Shown here: positions 2,457 through 12,506 of the stretch, one piece after another | How the letters are laid out: every line of letters begins with the position of its first letter | Numbering within the stretch: the first letter of the stretch is position 1 | From: Planktotalea arctica | GTDB taxonomy: Bacteria > Pseudomonadota > Alphaproteobacteria > Rhodobacterales > Rhodobacteraceae | Length of the DNA stretch: 64,000 nt | NCBI RefSeq assembly: GCF_002105285.1 | Contig: NZ_MUHR01000001.1 | Coordinates: forward strand, 372,001 to 436,000 | Direction: 5' to 3' | The notes under the pieces: model-generated | Told to the model about the DNA's origin: nothing | The model's input: only the letters and a program-made list of their open reading frames with translations | Databases searched by the model: none | Translations under genes and position numbers: made by a program

Positions 2457-2473
2457 CGCACTTGTGTTGATCG

Positions 2474-3232
2474 TTATGCGCCTTTGATATTGCGCTCCAT
2501 CAAACGCTGGAACAGGCGCGGCGAGAGTGCGTTGATCCACCACGACAGCCGCGCGATGCGTCCGACTGGAATGAAGGGTCGCCCTTTGGCATATCCGGCC
2601 AGAATGATCTTGGCCGCAGCATCGGGCGTCATATAATCCAAGCCGTCACGCGCCGATCCGGGGCGCAGCATACCATCGTTCATAGGGGCCGCATTGCCGA
2701 TATTGGTTGCCACGAAACTTGGCGCGGCGATTAAGGTGCGCACACCGTGCTCTGCCTCTTCCGAGCGCAGCGAAGCGAAAAACCCCTGCAACGCATGTTT
2801 GGACGCAGCATAGGCGGCACGATGATAGAGTGGCGAAAATCCGGCGACGGATGAGATGGCCAGATGCGTGCCTTTGCTGGCGCGCAAGGGCGCTAGAAAC
2901 CCGCGCGCGAGGGCAGTGGCCGCGAAATAATTGATTTCGAAAAGGCGGCGATGTGCGGTGTCTTTGGTGTCCTCGAAGCTGGCGATCTGCGAGACGCCTG
3001 CGTTGTAGATCACCAGATCAATGCTGGTGTGCGCGTCGAGGATTTCTGCGACGGTATCGTCCAAAGCAACGCCATCCGTCAGGTCGACTTGGTAGGCGCT
3101 CAATCGGTCATTCAGTTCAAGCGCGCTGATATCAATATCAAGCGCGACCACATGCCAGCCCTGCGTAATAAGCCGCGCCGTTAACGCGCGGCCGAGCCCG
3201 CCTGCGCCGCCGGAAATCACGACGGTTTTCAT
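2474..3232 (-). CDS. Short-chain dehydrogenase/reductase (last gene of FMO-transporter-SDR operon)
   Basis: This 252-residue classical SDR has the N-terminal dinucleotide-binding motif SGGAGGLG and the active-site YxxxK in AAYAASKHAL, preceded by the catalytic serine in AISSVAGF. The ATG at 3232 overlaps the TGA of the upstream gene by 4 nt (ATGA), which fixes the start and implies translational coupling. It ends a four-gene operon with a flavin monooxygenase, a BASS-family transporter and a second, extended SDR. It probably oxidises or reduces an alcohol/ketone made by the monooxygenase, but the substrate is unknown. Confidence 0.85.
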   Translation of the reverse strand: MKTVVISGGAGGLGRALTARLITQGWHVVALDIDISALELNDRLSAYQVDLTDGVALDDTVAEILDAHTSIDLVIYNAGVSQIASFEDTKDTAHRRLFEINYFAATALARGFLAPLRASKGTHLAISSVAGFSPLYHRAAYAASKHALQGFFASLRSEEAEHGVRTLIAAPSFVATNIGNAAPMNDGMLRPGSARDGLDYMTPDAAAKIILAGYAKGRPFIPVGRIARLSWWINALSPRLFQRLMERNIKGA

Positions 3233-4167
3233 AAACCCACGCTTTCGCGCCACAGATCGAACACTTCGCTGGAGGTTTTGTCAGGGATATAGCCAAAATC
3301 CCTTTTCAGCGCGTCATTCGCAAGGACGGGGCGGTATTGCAAGAACCTCACTTGCTCGGGACCATAGCGGGACAGGCCCAGCGGTTTGGCGAGGGCTAGC
3401 GCGACCTTGAGCACCCATGCAGGCAAGCGCAGAACGGGTTTTTTCAAGCGCGCAGCAATTTCTGTAACGCCAAGCGCGCCGTCGCCTGCGACGTTGTAGA
3501 TGCCTGCCGGTCCGTCCGTTGCTGCACGCATCACTATGCGTGCCAGATCACGGGTCCAAATGAACACGAAGGGGCTTTCGCTGCCTTTGATCGCGAGCAA
3601 GCGAGGCTTGTGAAACAGAGCGGTGATCTGATTGTCCGTTCCGGCACCAAGGACAGTGCCGACGCGCAGCACGACTTGCTCTAGCTGCGGCGCGTCGCTG
3701 CGCGCCTTGGCCAGCATTTCCTCGACCTGTCGTTTGTGATCGGCATAGGCGAATTCACGGTTCCCGCGGCATGGATCGCTTTCGCACAAGGGCACCGGAT
3801 TGTCGGCGTGATAGCCGTAGGCAGCGCCCGAACTGGTCACTACAAAGCGGCGCACGCCGTGTTTGATGCAGGCGTCGAGCACGTTGCGCGTGCCTTGCAC
3901 ATCGACCGCTTGGGCGACTTGGCGCCCCATCCCTGGTGGCGGCGTGACGATTGAGGCAAGATGCACGACGACGTCGGGTTTGATATCGTTGATCACGATT
4001 TCCACGTCCTCGCCCGTGACGTCGAGCAGGCGAAACGCAATACCGTGCGGCAGGTCTTTGCCGGAAAGATCGCTCGCGATGATATCGTTGAGGCCCGCCG
4101 ACACCATCTCGCCAATAAGGGCGCGGCCGATCATGCCTGATGCCCCTGTGATCAGAACGCAGCTCAT
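3229..4167 (-). CDS. NAD-dependent epimerase/dehydratase family (extended SDR) oxidoreductase
   Basis: The 312-residue protein has the extended-SDR nucleotide-binding motif TGASGMIG at residues 7-14, the conserved VVHLAS segment, a catalytic serine in VVTSSGAAYG and the YADHK active-site motif. The family includes sugar epimerases, 3-beta-hydroxysteroid dehydrogenases and carbonyl reductases, so sequence alone does not give the substrate. Both ends overlap neighbours by 4 nt: its start at 4167 with the stop of the BASS transporter and its stop with the start of the following SDR. The context with a flavin monooxygenase suggests a role in breakdown of a carbonyl or alcohol compound. Confidence 0.82.
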   Translation of the reverse strand: MSCVLITGASGMIGRALIGEMVSAGLNDIIASDLSGKDLPHGIAFRLLDVTGEDVEIVINDIKPDVVVHLASIVTPPPGMGRQVAQAVDVQGTRNVLDACIKHGVRRFVVTSSGAAYGYHADNPVPLCESDPCRGNREFAYADHKRQVEEMLAKARSDAPQLEQVVLRVGTVLGAGTDNQITALFHKPRLLAIKGSESPFVFIWTRDLARIVMRAATDGPAGIYNVAGDGALGVTEIAARLKKPVLRLPAWVLKVALALAKPLGLSRYGPEQVRFLQYRPVLANDALKRDFGYIPDKTSSEVFDLWRESVGL

Positions 4168-5060
4168 CGCGGGGCCTTTGTGCGTGCCCAGTATTTCGCG
4201 AGGGCAATGCCGGAAATTGCGTGCCAGATACCCCAGAAGGCGGCGACGACGGCCATGCCGCCAAGCCCGCCGAAGAAGCCGAAGATCAACACCAACCCGA
4301 GACCGGAATTTTGAATGCCGGTTTCGATGGTGATCGCGCGGCGGTCATAAGATGTGACGCCTGCGAGCGTCGCCAGTGTGAACCCTGTTCCAAGCGCGAT
4401 CGCGTTATGGGCGATCACCAATGCGATGATGACCCCTGCGAGGCTTAGGAAACTTGCCCAGTTCGCCCCGATTGCGACAAGGATGAAGGCGACAAAGATA
4501 GTCATGGACAGCCATTGAAGCGGTTTTCGAATGCGCGCGGTGAGGGCTGGTTTTGTGTGGTTGAGCCAGATGCCAAGTGCGAGCGGCAGGATCAGCATGA
4601 ATCCGACTGTGATCGCTACCGAAACAGGGTCGATCTGGGTCGCTTGCAAAATTGCGCACGTGGGGGCGTAAAGGCTGCCCCAAAAGGCGATGTTGAGCGG
4701 CGTGAGAAAAATCGCGCCAACAGTGGCGAGTGCGGTCATGGAGACGGAAAGCGCAGAATTTCCGCCTGCGCGGTGGGTGATGAAATTCGAGATATTTCCA
4801 CCCGGGCAGGCCGCGACAAGGATCAGGCCAAGCGCGACGGAAGGCGTCGGAGCGGCAAGGAAGACGAGGCAAAAGGTGAGTGCGGGCAGAAACAGAAACT
4901 GCGAAATCAACCCGACGATGAGCGGCTTGGGGGCGCGCGCGAGCGCCTTGAAATCGCGCGGAAGCAGATCGATCGCGATGGAAAACATCACGATCGCTAG
5001 GATCGCGTTCAGCGCCAACAAGGAGCTGGCGCTGAAAGTGAGGGCGACATCATCGATCAT
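4164..5060 (-). CDS. Bile acid:sodium symporter (BASS) family transporter
   Basis: A 298-residue, very hydrophobic protein with about nine or ten predicted membrane helices. The segment LVAACPGGNISNFIT, with its Pro-Gly-Gly-Asn crossover, is the hallmark of the BASS/SBF fold, in which crossed discontinuous helices bind sodium and an organic anion. The length matches family members that import organic acids such as pyruvate, pantothenate or bile acids. It overlaps the FMO stop and the epimerase start by 4 nt each. In this operon it most plausibly brings in the substrate of the monooxygenase. The transported compound is not predictable. Confidence 0.87.
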   Translation of the reverse strand: MIDDVALTFSASSLLALNAILAIVMFSIAIDLLPRDFKALARAPKPLIVGLISQFLFLPALTFCLVFLAAPTPSVALGLILVAACPGGNISNFITHRAGGNSALSVSMTALATVGAIFLTPLNIAFWGSLYAPTCAILQATQIDPVSVAITVGFMLILPLALGIWLNHTKPALTARIRKPLQWLSMTIFVAFILVAIGANWASFLSLAGVIIALVIAHNAIALGTGFTLATLAGVTSYDRRAITIETGIQNSGLGLVLIFGFFGGLGGMAVVAAFWGIWHAISGIALAKYWARTKAPR

Positions 5061-6373
5061 GGTTTCGCCCCGCCCAGTTTTCTGATCCAGCCTGTGACGG
5101 CTTTGCGGTAGGTCGCCTTATCTACGTAATACGCCATGCGCGCGAGGTTGAGATAATTCATCCCGCCCGTGGCGCGCTGGAACCCTTTGGCTTTCTCTGA
5201 CTGGAGGCCCTTGGCGCTTTGCGTACCTGCTCTCAGGGCTTTGATGTAGCGCACGACCATCTCGGCCTGCTCATGGCGCCCTTGCCAGCCAAGGCCGCTG
5301 GCCTCGACCATGCCGAGCACGAAAAGATCATCGCGGCCCGGGTGCATGGCGTTGAGGAAGAGATGCGGCGCATCGCCTTGCCAGTTAAGGTGCTGCTTTT
5401 CGATGAACGGATAGTCGAGCCTGTAGCCTGTAGCCGCGAGGATCATGTCGTACTCTCCGCTGGTGCCATCGGTGAAATGCACGGTTTTCCCGTCCATGTG
5501 ATCAACGTCAGGGCGGATTTTCAAATCACCGTGGCCTGCATGATAAAGAACGAGTGAGTTCACGACAGGATGGCTCTCGTAGAGTTTGTAATCGGGCTTG
5601 GGAAAGCCGTATTTCTGCGGATTGCCGACGAACCATTTGAGGATGGTCTGATCAATGGGCCGCTTGAGCCACATGGGCAATTTGATCGCGCCGCCCATGG
5701 TGTCTGCGGGTTTGCCAAAGACGTATTTTGGTACGAAATAGTAGCCTCGGCGCATGGACAGGTCAGTGCTTTTGCCATGGTGAATTGCATCGACGGCGAT
5801 ATCACAGCCGGAATTGCCCGCGCCGATCACAAGCACGCGTTTGTCGGTGAATTGCGTGGGGGCGCGGTAATGGGAGGCGTGAATCAACTCGCCTGTGAAA
5901 GCGCCCTTGAAGGCGGGCATGTTCGGCGCGCTCAGGGTGCCGTTGGCGATCATCACGCCTGCGAATGTTGCGCTGTGTTCGCCGGCTCCGTCGCGCCATG
6001 TGACGCGCCAGCCCTCTCCTGAACGGCCGAGTGGTTCGCAGGTTAGAACCTCTGCACCAAAGTGGTATTTTTCGTAGAGATCAAAATGCTTGGCGAAGTC
6101 GTGAAAGTATTGCTTTAGCGCATTGTGCGAGGGGTATTCGGCAACGTCTTCGCGCATGGGAAAGTCGGTGAATTCAGTCATGCGTTTTGAGGAAATCAAA
6201 TGCGCGCTGTCGTACATGGTGGAGCGTGGCCCGTCGATATCCCACAGGCCGCCCACGTCTGAATGAAGCTCGAAGCCCTGAAACGCGATATCGTGCTGGG
6301 CCATCAATTTGGCCGCTGCAAGGCCCATCGGGCCTGCGCCTATGAGTGCGATTTGTTTAGATGTGCCTGTCAT
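5057..6373 (-). CDS. Flavin-containing monooxygenase (class B), first gene of a four-gene operon
   Basis: The 438-residue protein carries the FAD-binding GAGPMG at residues 12-17, the NADPH-binding GAGNSG at 183-188 and, between them, FTGELIHASHY at 158-168, which fits the FMO/Baeyer-Villiger signature FxGxxxHxxxY. Such enzymes use NADPH and oxygen to oxygenate soft nucleophiles (N, S) or insert oxygen next to ketones. It leads the operon FMO-BASS transporter-epimerase-SDR, all joined by 4-nt overlaps. It does not match the trimethylamine monooxygenase Tmm closely as far as can be judged by eye. An N-oxide, S-oxide or ester product are all possible. Confidence 0.88.
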   Translation of the reverse strand: MTGTSKQIALIGAGPMGLAAAKLMAQHDIAFQGFELHSDVGGLWDIDGPRSTMYDSAHLISSKRMTEFTDFPMREDVAEYPSHNALKQYFHDFAKHFDLYEKYHFGAEVLTCEPLGRSGEGWRVTWRDGAGEHSATFAGVMIANGTLSAPNMPAFKGAFTGELIHASHYRAPTQFTDKRVLVIGAGNSGCDIAVDAIHHGKSTDLSMRRGYYFVPKYVFGKPADTMGGAIKLPMWLKRPIDQTILKWFVGNPQKYGFPKPDYKLYESHPVVNSLVLYHAGHGDLKIRPDVDHMDGKTVHFTDGTSGEYDMILAATGYRLDYPFIEKQHLNWQGDAPHLFLNAMHPGRDDLFVLGMVEASGLGWQGRHEQAEMVVRYIKALRAGTQSAKGLQSEKAKGFQRATGGMNYLNLARMAYYVDKATYRKAVTGWIRKLGGAKP

Positions 6374-6456
6374 GCGTGTCCCCTTGTGCGTCAGATTGGC
6401 AAAGGTTTTCGCAAAAGGCGAGAGGGGATGTGCGACTTGTTAGATGAGGCTGTGCT

Positions 6457-6535
6457 TGGGGCGGGGTAGGGGCGCTGCCCCCGTCTCGGCAAGCCGAGCC
6501 TCCCCCGAGGTATTTTGGGACCAGAGAAGTATAGG
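6457..6535. repeat. Roseobacter-type palindromic intergenic repeat, copy 1
   Basis: The gap between the FMO and icd genes holds a GC-rich unit: a GGGGC...GCCCC hairpin, then TCTCGGCAAGCCGAG, then a CTCCCCCGAGGTATTTTGG tail. The same order of parts recurs at 42288, 51113 and, more diverged, 38431 and 32172. It is a dispersed repeat rather than a gene-specific element. It lies downstream of nothing on the plus strand and 5' of the FMO on the minus strand. Confidence 0.75.
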
Positions 6536-6572
6536 GCCGCGCGAGAGTTTGGCGTGCGTGGCCCCGATGTGT

Positions 6573-8777
6573 TTAGCCAATAATGGCGTTCAACGTGGCC
6601 GAGGGGCGCATCACAGCGGCTGTTTTGGCCGCGTCGCCGTGATAGTAACCGCCAAGGTCAACAGCGGGGCCTTGGGCGGTGGCGAGTTCGGAAAGGATCG
6701 CAGTTTCATTTGACGCCAGCGCCGTCGCGATAGGCGCAAAGTGTGCAGCGAGTTCTGCGTCATCCGTTTGCGCCGCGAGCGCTTCGGCCCAGTAGCGCGC
6801 GAACCAATAGTGGCTGTCGCGGTTGTCCGGCTCGCCTACTTTGCGGCTTGGTGAGCGATTGTCGTCAAGGATGCCTTGTGTCGCGGCATCAACGGCTTGT
6901 CCTAGAACGCGCGCTTTCTCGTTGGAGCGTGCGTCGGCGAGGAACTGTAGGCTTTCCCCCAATGCGCAGAACTCACCAAGGCTGTCCCAGCGCAGATGGT
7001 TTTGCTCCATAAGCTGCTGAACGTGCTTGGGGGCAGAGCCGCCAGCGCCGGTTTCAAACAAACCACCACCTTGCATGAGTTTCACGATGGAGAGCATCTT
7101 GGCAGAAGTCGCCAGTTCGAGGATTGGAAACAGGTCGGTGAGGTAGTCGCGCAGCACGTTGCCGGTGATTGCGATGGAGTTTTCGCCTTTGGTGATTGTC
7201 TCCAAGGACGCGCGCGTCGCGGCGCGGGGTGCCATGATCTGGAACTTGTCGGCAACGCCCTGCGCCTCAAGGATCGGTGTGACGTATTTGATCAATTCAG
7301 CGTCATGGGCGCGGTCCGCATCAAGCCAGAAGATTGCTTCAAATCCTTCCGACCTTTGACGCGAAATCGCGAGGTTCACCCAGTCTTCAATGGGTGCCTT
7401 GCGCGTGGAAGCAGAGCGCCAGATGTCGCCTTCCTCTACCTTATGCTCGTGCAGGACCGTGCCATCATCAAGGATCATGCGAACCGTACCGGCGGCAGGC
7501 ATTTCGAATGTTGTGGGGTGCGAGCCGTACTCTTCCGCCTTTTGCGCCATAAGGCCGATGTTTTGCACAGTGCCTGCGGTGGCCGGGTTCAGTGCGCCGT
7601 TTTCTTTGAAGAACTTCACCGACTCGTCATATACGGGCGCGTAGGAGTTGTCGGGAATAACGCAGTTTGCATCGGATTCGCTGCCATCAGGGCCCCAGCC
7701 TTTTCCGCCAGCGCGGATCAATGCGGGCATGGAGGCGTCGATGATAACATCGGAGGGGACATGCAGGTTGGTGATGCCCTTGTCGCTGTCCACCATGTAG
7801 AGCGGCGGGCGTTTTTTCATGCAGGCGTCAATCGCAGCCATAATTGCAGGCTGGTCTTTGACGCGCGCAAGCAAATCACCCATGCCGGAATTGGGGTTCA
7901 CCCCGAGGTCGGCCATTTCAGCGCCGAAGATGTCGAAGACCGGAGCGAGGAACACCTTGACCGCATGACCGAAGATGATCGGATCAGACACCTTCATCAT
8001 CGTAGCTTTCATGTGCAGCGAGAAGAGCGTGCCGTCTGCTTTGGTGCTGTCGATCTCTGCGGCGAGAAATCTATCCAGCGCGGCGGCGCTCATGAAGGTG
8101 GCATCGACAACTGTGCCAGCGGGGTAGGAGAGGCCCTCTTTCAGGACAGTTTCGCCGGTTGCGGTTTCTAACACGATCTTGGCAGTGGCCTCAGTGGGCA
8201 GAGTCGCGGATTTCTCGTTGGAGAAGAAATCGCCGCCTTCCATTGCCGAGACGCGGGTTTTGCTGTCGGCCGTCCATTTGCCCATGCGGTGCGGGTTGTT
8301 CTGCGCGTAGCTTTTTACCGCTTTGGCGGCGCGGCGATCGGAATTGCCCTCGCGCAGGACCGGGTTCACGGCAGAGCCTTTGATCGTGTCGTATTTCGCA
8401 CGGATCACTTTTTCTGCGTCTGTGGAAGGTGTCTCGGGGTAGTCGGGCAGGCCGAAGCCTTGGGATTGAAGCTCTTTCACGGCGGCGACCAGTTGCGGCA
8501 CGGAGGCGGAGATGTTGGGCAGCTTGATCACGTTGGCTTCGGGCGTTTTCACCAACTTACCAAGTTCTGCGAGGTCGTCGGACTGGCGTTGAACCTCGCT
8601 CAGATACTCAGGAAAGGTCGCAAGAATACGGCCCGCGAGGGAGATATCTTTGGTCCCCACGGACACGCCGGCGGCTGCGGCGAATTTCTGGATGATCGGC
8701 AGGAAGGAGGCGGAGGCCAGTTCTGGCGCTTCGTCGACCTTGGTGTAAATGATGTCGGGTGTGTTGTTGTTGGACAT
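6573..8777 (-). CDS. icd: Isocitrate dehydrogenase, NADP-dependent, monomeric type
   Basis: This 734-residue protein matches the about 80-kDa single-chain isocitrate dehydrogenase family throughout (opening with a [12 protein letters not shown] segment; internal blocks such as [18 protein letters not shown] and [14 protein letters not shown]). It converts isocitrate and NADP+ to 2-oxoglutarate, CO2 and NADPH in the TCA cycle. Monomeric IDH replaces or accompanies the homodimeric enzyme in several alphaproteobacteria. The start at 8777 has a GAGG-type ribosome-binding site. A doubled GTATAC motif lies 71-86 nt upstream and may be an operator or part of the promoter. Confidence 0.96.
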
Positions 8778-8877: not shown

Positions 8878-9726
8878 TCAGCTTTTCTTGCTGTCATCCT
8901 CGATATTCAACGCTGCTTGTCCGCTATCACCCAGCGGGACTGACGCGAAAGGACCACCATGGCACATATGGGCAGGTTCATGGGGGTCGAGGAGGCCATC
9001 CTTTGCGAACATCGAGTGGGCGAATTGCTCGGCATTGTCCTTGGGGCGAAATCCGAGAAATGAGGCAGCGGCGTTGTCCACGGGCGCGCGATCATTGCGC
9101 GAAACGCCATAGCAAATCGTGAATCCCGTGACGGGTGTATCGACAGAGCGCTGCACGAGTTGGATCAGATCATCATAGCTGAGCCATGATCCGACCGAAC
9201 GCGTGTTGCCGACCTTGGCGCAGCTGTAAATGCGCAGGCAAACCGCTTCGATGCCGCGTTTTTCCCAGACCATGCGCGCAAGGTCTTCGGCGAAGCACTT
9301 GGACAGCCCGTAATAAGTGTCGGGGCGGTGGGGGACATCCGTGCCAATGAATTGGGTCTTGGGGTACATGCCGACGGCATGGATGGAAGAGGCATAGACG
9401 ATGCGGCGCACGCCGTTGCGGTGCGCAGCCTCCCAGATGTTATAGGCCCCGATGATGTTGGAGTGCAGGATCGCATCGAACGCAGCTTCGTCCCCGATCG
9501 CGCCGAAATGTATGATCATATCAGCGTCTTTGCTCAGCGCTTCAATTGCGCCCAGATCGCCAAGGTCTGCCTTGATGTATATCTCACCCGGGTAAAGCCC
9601 CCCGATGTCCTCGGCCAGATCGCTGGAGACCAGTGTTTCACACATCTTGGAGAGCGGTTCGCGCAGGTACGAGCCAAGGCGTCCAGCGGCCCCTGTCAGA
9701 ACGAGTTTCTTGAGCTTAACAGTCAT
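8878..9726 (-). CDS. Uronate dehydrogenase-like NAD(P)-dependent SDR
   Basis: The 282-residue extended SDR has TGAAGRLG at residues 11-18, an active-site serine in YASSIHAVG and DTYYGLSK with Tyr139 and Lys143. The DTYYGLSKCFAE block and the overall plan resemble uronate dehydrogenase (Udh), which oxidises D-glucuronate or D-galacturonate to the aldarolactone, though it is slightly longer than the roughly 265-residue Agrobacterium enzyme. The ATG at 9726 overlaps the upstream stop (TGATG). It ends the six-gene operon starting at 14518. No other sugar-acid genes are near, so another hydroxy-acid or sugar-like substrate is equally possible. Confidence 0.68.
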   Translation of the reverse strand: MTVKLKKLVLTGAAGRLGSYLREPLSKMCETLVSSDLAEDIGGLYPGEIYIKADLGDLGAIEALSKDADMIIHFGAIGDEAAFDAILHSNIIGAYNIWEAAHRNGVRRIVYASSIHAVGMYPKTQFIGTDVPHRPDTYYGLSKCFAEDLARMVWEKRGIEAVCLRIYSCAKVGNTRSVGSWLSYDDLIQLVQRSVDTPVTGFTICYGVSRNDRAPVDNAAASFLGFRPKDNAEQFAHSMFAKDGLLDPHEPAHMCHGGPFASVPLGDSGQAALNIEDDSKKS

Positions 9727-10931
9727 CAGATGATCGCCTTTTCTTCAAATGCGCGCCCTTGCAGGATCCGCTCGAACCCGAAGGGCGACATATCCAGCGA
9801 GCGGTATCCGCCGTAGGTGAGCCATTCAGCTGTGGCGCGCCCCATGGCGGGGCTTTGTTGCAGGCCATGGCCAGAAAATCCGTTGAGGAAGATGAAATTC
9901 GTGAGCTCAGGGTGGGGCCCTAGAACAGCGTTCTGATCAAGTGTGTTGTAGGCATAATGCCCTGCCCATTCGGTTACGACTTTGATTGCTTCGAACTGGG
10001 GGATGCGCGATGCGATAATGGGCCAGACGTGGTTTTCCCAGCGACTGTGATCCATGTTGAAATCTGTGGGATCGACGGCGATGTCGTCCTCCGGATTTGG
10101 GGCACTGCCCGCAAGATAGGTCTTGGGCCCGTCTTGGCGGACATGCACGCCAGAGGGATCAATCGTCAGGGGTAGATCCTGATCGAGTGGTTGCTCGGCG
10201 CTGAAAATCCATGTGAAGCGTTTGCGCGGCTCGACAGGTAAATTGATCCCCGCCATTTTCGAGGTGAGCGCCGCGCGTGGACCTGAGGCGTTCACGACCT
10301 GGCCACAGGCGATCACTTCACCGCTTTCCAGCGTCACGGACTGCACCTTGCTGCCCTGCACATCTATTGCTGCAACGCGGTTGGTGACATATTCTACGCC
10401 GCGATCTTTGGCGGAGCGGCGCCACCAGTCGAATACCGTGCCTCCGTCCCAGTAACCCTCGTCCTTGAGGTTGATAGAGCCGAGCAGAATGTCATCGACA
10501 TTGTAGAACGGATAGCGCGCTTTAATTTCGTTTGCGTCTAAAAGCTGGGTCTCTGCGCCTGCCTCCAGCTGTACTTTCTGATTGGAGCGCAGCACATCGG
10601 CAAAGCCTTCATTATCGGCCAGATACATATACCCGTAGTTTTGGATATCCAGCTCAGGCACGCGTGTATCACCGCCCATGTAGCCGCGCAGGTTCTTGAT
10701 GAATTCGGCAGCGAACTGGCTGATCTGCACGTTGATTTTGTTGGAAAACTGCTGGCGCATGCAGGAGTTCGTGTGCGCAGTCGAGGATTTGGCGTAGCTG
10801 CTGTCCATTTCCACGACCAGAACAGAGCCGTTGAAATCGGGGTTGTCCGTCAGAAACCAAGCGGTCGAGGAGCCCATCATCGCACCGCCGATGATGACCA
10901 CATCGTAGCTGGATTTGGAGGGCGCGCTCAT
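9726..10931 (-). CDS. FAD-dependent oxidoreductase, DAO/sarcosine oxidase-like family
   Basis: A 401-residue flavoprotein with the dinucleotide-binding GGAMMGSSTAWFL near the N terminus and a C-terminal LNGFSGHGLQQSPAMG, the segment that closes over FAD in DAO-family oxidases. The family oxidises amino or hydroxy acids (sarcosine, dimethylglycine, D-amino acids, 2-hydroxyglutarate). The ATG at 10931 overlaps the rhodanese stop by 4 nt, and a longer start upstream is not needed. In this operon it probably produces a 2-oxo acid or amine-free acid for the following SDR or for the CoA-linked steps. The substrate is unknown. Confidence 0.82.
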   Translation of the reverse strand: MSAPSKSSYDVVIIGGAMMGSSTAWFLTDNPDFNGSVLVVEMDSSYAKSSTAHTNSCMRQQFSNKINVQISQFAAEFIKNLRGYMGGDTRVPELDIQNYGYMYLADNEGFADVLRSNQKVQLEAGAETQLLDANEIKARYPFYNVDDILLGSINLKDEGYWDGGTVFDWWRRSAKDRGVEYVTNRVAAIDVQGSKVQSVTLESGEVIACGQVVNASGPRAALTSKMAGINLPVEPRKRFTWIFSAEQPLDQDLPLTIDPSGVHVRQDGPKTYLAGSAPNPEDDIAVDPTDFNMDHSRWENHVWPIIASRIPQFEAIKVVTEWAGHYAYNTLDQNAVLGPHPELTNFIFLNGFSGHGLQQSPAMGRATAEWLTYGGYRSLDMSPFGFERILQGRAFEEKAII

Positions 10932-11320
10932 GTTGCTTTCTCCACCGGCCCACCTTGTGCTTCCCATGTCGAAAAACCCTCGCGTAGATGTGCCGCATCA
11001 AAGCCCATCTGGTTCAAGGTATTCACGGCGAGCGCAGAGCGCCATCCGGAGGCACAGTGGAACACGAACTGCTTGTCCTCGCCGAAGATGGTTTTGAAAT
11101 AGGGGCTATCGGGGTCGATCCAGAACTCCAGCATGCCGCGCGGTGCATGCACGCTGCCAGGGATAAAGCCGCCTCGCTGGCGTTCTCGGACATCGCGGAT
11201 ATCGACGACGACCACGTTCGGGTCATCGAGCATGGCGATCAGATCAGGGGTTTCAATCTCGCGGATCTCCGCACGCGCATTGGCGACCATTTCTGCCGCA
11301 GTGGTTTTGAGTTTAGCCAT
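10928..11320 (-). CDS. Single-domain rhodanese (sulfurtransferase)
   Basis: The 130-residue protein is one rhodanese domain with the active loop CASGWRS, Cys89 being the sulfur-carrying residue. The aspartate/arginine pair in VVDIRDVRERQ is typical of the fold. It would move sulfane sulfur between persulfides or from thiosulfate in the cytoplasm. The ATG at 11320 is chosen because it directly follows a ribosome-binding site and starts just 10 nt after the CoA transferase stop. Its presence inside a CoA-thioester operon is unusual and could point to a sulfur-containing substrate. Confidence 0.85.
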   Translation of the reverse strand: MAKLKTTAAEMVANARAEIREIETPDLIAMLDDPNVVVVDIRDVRERQRGGFIPGSVHAPRGMLEFWIDPDSPYFKTIFGEDKQFVFHCASGWRSALAVNTLNQMGFDAAHLREGFSTWEAQGGPVEKAT

Positions 11321-11330
11321 GTCTTGTCCC

Positions 11331-12506
11331 CTAGATAACGCCCTTGCCAGAGAGCGCATCAATGCTGGCGCTGTCCATCCCCAATTCTTCCAAAATGGCG
11401 CGCGAATGCTGGCCGAGTGCGGGGATCGCGTCCATGCGCGGCTCTGCCCCGACGCCGCCGGGGGGGAGGAGTGCGGGCATGGGGCCAACAGGCGTGTCTA
11501 CTTCGCGCCAGCGACCGCGTGCTTTAAGCTGTGGGTGCGCCCAAAGCCCTGCCATATCGTTCATGCGCGCATTGGCGATGCCAGCGGCGCTGAGTTTAGT
11601 TATGACTTCCTCAGCGCTCCACTTGGAAAAGGTGGCCATGATGATCGCGGTCAGGTCGAGTTTGTTTGCCGCGCGCGCGTGATTGCTATCGAAGCGCGGG
11701 TCGGTTTCAAGCGCTGGAGCCTCAAGGATGTCACGGCAGAACGTGGTCCATTCACGGTCATTTTGCAGACCCAGCATCACTTCTTTGCCGTCCCCTGCCA
11801 TGAACGGGCCATAGGGAAAGATCGTTGCATGCGCCGCCCCTGCTCGGGCGGGTGGCTCAGCGCCGTCTGTGGCGTAATACATCGGGTAGCCGATCCATTC
11901 CGCCAGCGCTTCCAGCATCGAAATATTGATTTCAGCGCCTTTACCCGTCTTGCCCCGTTGGAGCAGGGCCGCGAGGATGTTGGTGTACGCGTACATGCCA
12001 GCGGCGATATCAGCGACGGAAATGCCTGCCTTGCTGGGTTTCGTGTCCGTACCCGTGATCGACAGAAAACCCGCTTCGGCCTGCACCAAAAGATCATAGG
12101 CCTTGCGGTCTGTTTCCGGTCCATTGGGGCCGTAGCCGGAAATGTTGCAAATGATCAATTTGGGGTGCTTAGCGTGCAAGGTTTCAAAGCCAAGCCCCAT
12201 GCGGTTTGCCGCGCCGGGGGCGAGGTTTTGAACGAGGATATCTGCGGTGTCGATTAGCTTGCTCAGCACCTTCATTCCATCCTTTGATTTCAAATCCAGC
12301 GTGAGGCTTTCCTTCGAGCGGTTGCTCCAGACGAAATGCGAGGACATGCCGCGCGCGCGCGTGTCGTAGCCGCGTGCGAAATCACCCTTGCCGGGGCGCT
12401 CGATCTTGATCACCCGAGCGCCCAGATCAGCGAGTTGCCGTGTTGCAAAGGGCGCGGCAACCGCATGTTCCAGCGCGATCACCGTGATACCATCAAGGGG
12501 CAACAT
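11331..12506 (-). CDS. Class III CoA transferase (CaiB/BaiF family)
   Basis: The 391-residue protein starts with the family hallmark (GITVIALEHAVAAPFATRQL, then ADLGARVIKIERPGKGD) and has the catalytic aspartate Asp138 in KAYDLLVQAEAG. Class III transferases move CoA between carboxylic acids through an aspartyl-CoA anhydride. Relatives include succinyl-CoA:malate, mesaconyl-CoA C1-C4 and 3-sulfinopropionate transferases. The start at 12506 immediately follows the stop of the acyl-CoA dehydrogenase. In this operon it most likely activates the acid, or shifts CoA from one carboxyl to the other. Confidence 0.9.
   Translation of the reverse strand: MLPLDGITVIALEHAVAAPFATRQLADLGARVIKIERPGKGDFARGYDTRARGMSSHFVWSNRSKESLTLDLKSKDGMKVLSKLIDTADILVQNLAPGAANRMGLGFETLHAKHPKLIICNISGYGPNGPETDRKAYDLLVQAEAGFLSITGTDTKPSKAGISVADIAAGMYAYTNILAALLQRGKTGKGAEINISMLEALAEWIGYPMYYATDGAEPPARAGAAHATIFPYGPFMAGDGKEVMLGLQNDREWTTFCRDILEAPALETDPRFDSNHARAANKLDLTAIIMATFSKWSAEEVITKLSAAGIANARMNDMAGLWAHPQLKARGRWREVDTPVGPMPALLPPGGVGAEPRMDAIPALGQHSRAILEELGMDSASIDALSGKGVI

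Follow-up and report, generated by a model that had tools for sequence, protein, structure and literature searches.

Four overlapping genes of Planktotalea arctica, encoding a flavin-containing monooxygenase (FMO), a BASS family transporter and two SDRs, form one real, selected unit that recurs in other bacteria, most of them Rhodobacterales. Our preferred reading, to which we give an even chance, is that this unit is a horizontally distributed, normally inducible cassette for the uptake and oxidation of one small organic anion. The genes are located in the window, i.e. the whole 64,000-nucleotide stretch of DNA that was analysed, at the following positions:

5057..6373, minus strand: gene 1, FMO (class B flavin-containing monooxygenase), 438 aa, identified by ORF and Pfam
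4164..5060, minus strand: gene 2, BASS (SBF) family transporter, 298 aa, identified by ORF and Pfam
3229..4167, minus strand: gene 3, extended SDR (NAD-dependent epimerase/dehydratase fold), 312 aa, identified by ORF and Pfam
2474..3232, minus strand: gene 4, classical SDR, 252 aa, identified by ORF and Pfam
5057..5060, minus strand: ATGA start/stop overlap of genes 1 and 2, read in the sequence and kept in 77 of 80 loci
4164..4167, minus strand: ATGA start/stop overlap of genes 2 and 3, read in the sequence and kept in 78 of 80 loci
3229..3232, minus strand: ATGA start/stop overlap of genes 3 and 4, read in the sequence and kept in 76 of 80 loci

A first-pass annotation, made from the letters alone, had named these four families and described three 4-nt ATGA junctions. 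The junctions were confirmed by direct reading of the window sequence, where forward-strand TCAT corresponds to minus-strand ATGA at all three (4 nt each), and the family names agreed with Pfam scores well over the cut-offs: 181 bits for the FMO-like domain in gene 1 (PF00743; cut-off, 22), 117 bits for SBF in gene 2 (PF01758; cut-off, 24), 98 bits for Epimerase in gene 3 (PF01370; cut-off, 21) and 134 bits for adh_short in gene 4 (PF00106; cut-off, 27). Gene 4 starts at the ATG at 3232; the GTG at 3253 is only a mechanical ORF start. The annotation had also concluded that the four proteins are probably made in a fixed ratio. The ATGA overlaps make translational coupling of the four genes likely, but they give no proof of a fixed ratio. 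None of the four proteins reached an NCBIfam equivalog model that would assign a function.

The gene order FMO–BASS–extended SDR–SDR, which the first-pass annotation had recommended searching for in other genomes, was present in all 80 named loci kept from a scan of species-representative genomes with FMO alignment. These loci belonged mostly to Rhodobacterales (Ruegeria, Thioclava, Sulfitobacter, Phaeobacter and Shimia, among others); a few records were Hyphomicrobiales-like or Sneathiella-like. Since they were picked by FMO similarity, a second sample, sharing part of its members with the first, was drawn by the extended SDR. Of the 293 genomes sampled from the order, 50 (in 24 of 114 genera) carried this SDR, and the full four-gene order was found in 39 of the 40 places picked by it, the remaining one being at a contig end. 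Among 101 relatives, the same nine genomes contained close orthologues of both SDRs and the FMO, and a tenth genome (G061) carried a divergent set together, comprising at least both SDRs and the BASS gene. Pairwise distances of the four proteins were correlated (Mantel r, 0.47–0.75), and 0 of 200 permutations gave a value as high. The conserved order, the overlaps and the co-occurrence indicate that the four genes form one unit; a lack of joint conservation, which the annotation had named as grounds for abandoning its reading, was looked for, and the four genes proved to be conserved together. The operon was not found in the five genus members searched, and plasmids yielded neither an FMO orthologue of at least 60% identity nor a gene 3 relative at E 1e-40.

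In more distant proteobacteria, the set was kept in other orders and with other regulators. L162 carries FMO–BASS–extended SDR–SDR followed by a TauE/SafE-family gene, with a divergent AraC-type gene in front; the order is SDR–FMO–BASS–extended SDR in L160 and L161, and BASS–extended SDR–FMO in L164. Several junctions in these distant sets are again 4-nt overlaps, and an arabinose-binding-type domain is present in their AraC-type regulators. More than any other finding, the retention of the genes through re-ordering in distant lineages points to a shared function. It could be argued that there is no common pathway, and that four ordinary genes are kept side by side through chance or a promoter, given that every one of the families is large and promiscuous. 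However, this is already contradicted by the order in all 80 loci, the nine-of-nine co-occurrence, the different orders in distant lineages and the correlated gene distances, and we consider its probability close to nil.

In two of the distant lineages, the TauE/SafE-family permease gene adjoins the four-gene set, at L162:6221-6958 and L161:10398-11186 (Pfam-tested in L162 only), a neighbor that hints at an organosulfur or other organic-acid substrate. Two variant clusters, L129:9242-15293 and L168:2154-10534, combine relatives of the extended SDR and the BASS transporter with a Vgb-lyase/SMP-30-like protein and an MFS transporter; the former has a CxxCH motif in L129. No FMO gene was found near either cluster, and a TonB receptor is encoded nearby in L168. 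Three genomes of one genus (L165, L166 and L167) carry relatives of the extended SDR (~43–45% identity) with the other three genes not adjacent, in a conserved setting with phosphate-transporter-like and peptidase-like genes nearby.

A divergent TetR-family gene (TetR_N and TetR_C_30 domains) was present in each of the 80 named loci, with its matched start ~60–115 nt from the FMO start, and in 38 of the 40 places picked by the extended SDR; beyond it, no neighbor was common to most of the loci. The consensus of the TetR–FMO spacer was CTTGCCTTATTTTGAACnnTTGTTCAAnnTAA. The palindrome TTGAAC-N4-GTTCAA was found ~42 nt before the FMO start, again in 80 of 80 loci, and is adjoined by a TTGCCT (-35-like) element. 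Of the 10 positions of TGAAC-N4-GTTCA, none was mismatched in 48 loci, one in 26 and two in 6, compared with mostly 3–5 mismatches in control stretches drawn at random from these loci. A TetR-controlled divergent operon was thus seen in the 80 named relatives and not at the window copy, where the palindrome is missing (best match, 4 of 10 mismatches, which is chance level); a search of the window genome for a TetR orthologue found none, the best match being 39% over ~107 residues. The operon also lacks both TetR gene and palindrome in another member of the Rhodobacterales, L188 (= G743), in which the upstream genes differ and the site is unrelated to that of the window. Both were present in all eight orthologues examined among relatives. 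Joint absence in two cases and joint presence otherwise support the pairing of regulator and operator, and suggest that the TetR-family regulator acts, presumably by binding, at the palindrome. The PDB relatives of TetR, the best of them being NicR (E 4e-15 to 3e-15), were too distant to indicate an inducer. The description of the route as self-contained could not be maintained, since the unit normally has its own TetR gene and palindrome, both missing in the window, and is without finishing catabolic enzymes: no hydrolase, CoA ligase or ring-cleavage enzyme occurs in the conserved four-gene unit.

The window operon is located between a lepA-like gene and a monomeric isocitrate-dehydrogenase-like gene, both named by inspection. 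Its upstream border consists of two segments:

6374..6467, minus strand: operon leader, which came with the operon; TetR gene and palindrome missing here
6468..6572, no strand: backbone, lying downstream of the isocitrate dehydrogenase gene and with homology in two operon-less genus members

For these two genus members, similarity begins again at 6468, at a distance of 95 nt upstream from the FMO start, and for a third operon-less member at 6573, so that the inserted segment ends in the region of about 6468–6572. The slot corresponding to window positions 2457-6572 is occupied in the operon-less genus members L169, L170 and L171 by a GAPDH gene, a 426-aa MFS gene and a short ORF. The GAPDH and MFS pair presumably resembles the ArsJ arsenate-export pair, and the short ORF resembles a REP-type transposase, with no Pfam match. 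The different content and the points where similarity resumes mark the stretch from lepA to the isocitrate dehydrogenase gene as a variable slot. The cassette probably either arrived at this site or persisted here while relatives lost it, in both cases without its regulator. Considering that regulator and operator are both missing, the window copy is probably expressed constitutively or via another promoter, or is on the way to losing regulation. Elsewhere in the window, at 8878-12506, inspection revealed same-strand genes resembling those for an NAD-dependent sugar-acid dehydrogenase, an FAD-dependent oxidase of the amino-acid/sarcosine type, a rhodanese and a CaiB-type CoA transferase.

The FMO contains two GxGxxG dinucleotide motifs (GAGPMG at residue 12 and GAGNSG at residue 184) and, at residues 159-169, the sequence FTGELIHASHY, which corresponds to the class B FMO fingerprint FxGxxxHxxx(Y/F); the motif residues were almost invariant across 81 sequences. 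These motifs are shared with trimethylamine monooxygenase (Tmm), which is common in marine Rhodobacterales, and other bacterial class B FMOs. However, gene 1 is on a separate sequence branch from Tmm, closer to DiatB (8z12) and ancestral animal FMOs, and Tmm was rejected as its identity, the score being 99 bits where NCBIfam NF058570 requires 675. ArsO was ruled out by its NCBIfam model score, and a type I Baeyer–Villiger monooxygenase was rejected because the fingerprint FxGxxxHTxxWP is missing from gene 1. The nearest solved structures were DiatB and reconstructed ancestral animal FMOs, at ~27–28% identity. DiatB (PDB 8z12-8z17) was the top match by both sequence and fold, but its identity of ~28% across most of the chain is far too low for its substrate to be transferred. 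The FMO structure model, built from eight sequences, had a moderate mean pLDDT of 67 and was used for the fold class only.

The nearest solved relatives of the gene 2 product were the ASBT-type structures 3zux and 3zuy, with an alignment covering 274 residues. Its conserved motifs SN, ALSVSMT and EtGIQNSG correspond to the SN, ALSxxxT and E-x-G-x-QNSG motifs, which we take to be the sodium and substrate sites of the ASBT-type family. The protein was under the curated cut-off of TIGR00841 (179 vs 326 bits), and the pantoate transporter PanS was rejected as its identity (119 bits vs a cut-off of 400; NCBIfam NF047939). BASS proteins are grouped by fold, the importer direction is family knowledge, and small acids such as pantoate are among the substrates of the family. 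We infer that gene 2 encodes a sodium-coupled importer of an organic anion. Lone BASS orthologues (~70% identity), with no FMO or SDR genes, were found in two genomes (L130:8900-10800 and L131:7211-9178), in both cases divergent from a PlsC-like acyltransferase gene, so the substrate of the transporter need not be specific to the route. The same arrangement would suit the biosynthesis or salvage of a lipid- or cofactor-like acid, in which the dehydrogenases and the FMO tailor an imported precursor. We give this only a slim chance, because the operon itself is without an acyltransferase, and its patchy presence and own regulator fit an optional route better.

Gene 3 has the Rossmann glycine motif, the YxxxK motif (Y141/K145) and the whole-length fold of an extended SDR, and Asp33 closes its β2 strand; in the classical SDR, the corresponding residues are Y141/K145 and Asp32. 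An Asp after β2 in SDRs usually favors NAD(H), and both proteins are accordingly predicted to be NAD-type enzymes working in the oxidative direction. The structure model of gene 3 had a mean pLDDT of 92, and a fold search listed sugar epimerases first, with Z ~30 over the whole model. Gene 3 shares its fold, YxxxK and NAD motif with sugar epimerases and 3β-HSD-like extended SDRs, but it reached no equivalog model, and identity was at most 26% among the matches listed. The terpenoid/steroid-like substrate named in the first-pass annotation received no specific support and is one of many possibilities. In a pathway modifying steroids, bile acids or terpenoids, the BASS protein would take up the bile-acid-like substrate, the SDRs would epimerize or oxidize its hydroxyls and the FMO would oxidize a ketone. 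The name of the BASS family and the nearest structure to gene 2 are consistent with this, gene 3 does match 3Beta_HSD (PF01073), and the TonB receptor near the distant cluster L168 would suit a large substrate. Nevertheless, we regard such a pathway as rather improbable: the 3Beta_HSD score (66 bits) is lower than that of the generic Epimerase domain, the fold matches within the identity limit given above are sugar epimerases and not steroid enzymes, other steroid degradation genes are not linked to the loci, and small acids are also transported within the BASS family.

The preferred reading, an uptake-and-oxidation cassette, builds on what was observed: which genes are present and in what order, their overlaps and co-occurrence, the conserved palindrome, the fact that regulator and palindrome are missing together, and the intact motifs; to these it adds a proposed transport direction, substrate type, reaction order and repression. 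The TetR-family regulator, sitting on the palindrome by the TTGCCT element, would hold transcription back until it binds the substrate or a product. The anion would then be imported with sodium by the BASS protein, and the FMO would attach a single oxygen atom to it at the expense of NADPH and O2, by N- or S-oxidation or by insertion next to a carbonyl. The two NAD-type SDRs would then oxidize or interconvert hydroxyl and keto groups, giving a product that enters general metabolism. That the conserved unit has no enzyme leading into central metabolism fits modification or detoxification equally. In a detoxification or signal-quenching system, a toxic amphipathic or S/N compound would enter through, or be pumped by, the BASS protein and be inactivated by the FMO and the SDRs, with TetR sensing the toxin. 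TetR-type control over an oxygenase, dehydrogenases and a transporter would suit such a system, as would the missing central link and the patchy spread within the order and the genus. On the other hand, a sodium-coupled importer family is a poor choice for this role, and AraC-type regulators with an arabinose-binding-type domain, as in the distant sets, are more typical of nutrient use; we therefore consider detoxification unlikely.

The first-pass annotation had recognized no known pathway with this gene set. None was found in the family models or in the open-access full text searched, which contained no published description of the set, and no BASS transporter was named in the parts of open-access Ruegeria pomeroyi papers reached by keyword search. 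An FMO or flavoprotein gene adjoins SDR genes in the mymA-type operons of mycobacteria and in the iif indole operon; to our knowledge, these operons have no BASS transporter and their gene sets differ. All parts of the unit are from known families, and inducible transporter–oxygenase–dehydrogenase operons are already a known kind, so the interest of the unit rests on its conservation and its ready testability. Approximately one-sixth of the genomes sampled in the order are carriers, and among them are named culturable species (a Ruegeria pomeroyi strain, Thioclava, Sulfitobacter and Phaeobacter). Because a TetR-family gene and a predicted operator normally accompany the unit, its inducer, and from it the substrate, could be identified with a reporter screen. 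More tentatively, the set may be a modular, undescribed uptake–oxygenation route dedicated to one particular organic anion that is abundant in the sea, spread with interchangeable regulators across what appear to be alpha-, beta- and gamma-proteobacteria; its substrate would then be an unseen currency exchanged between algae and Rhodobacterales. Should the substrate prove to be a common metabolite of algae, the operon would provide a set of marker genes for its turnover.
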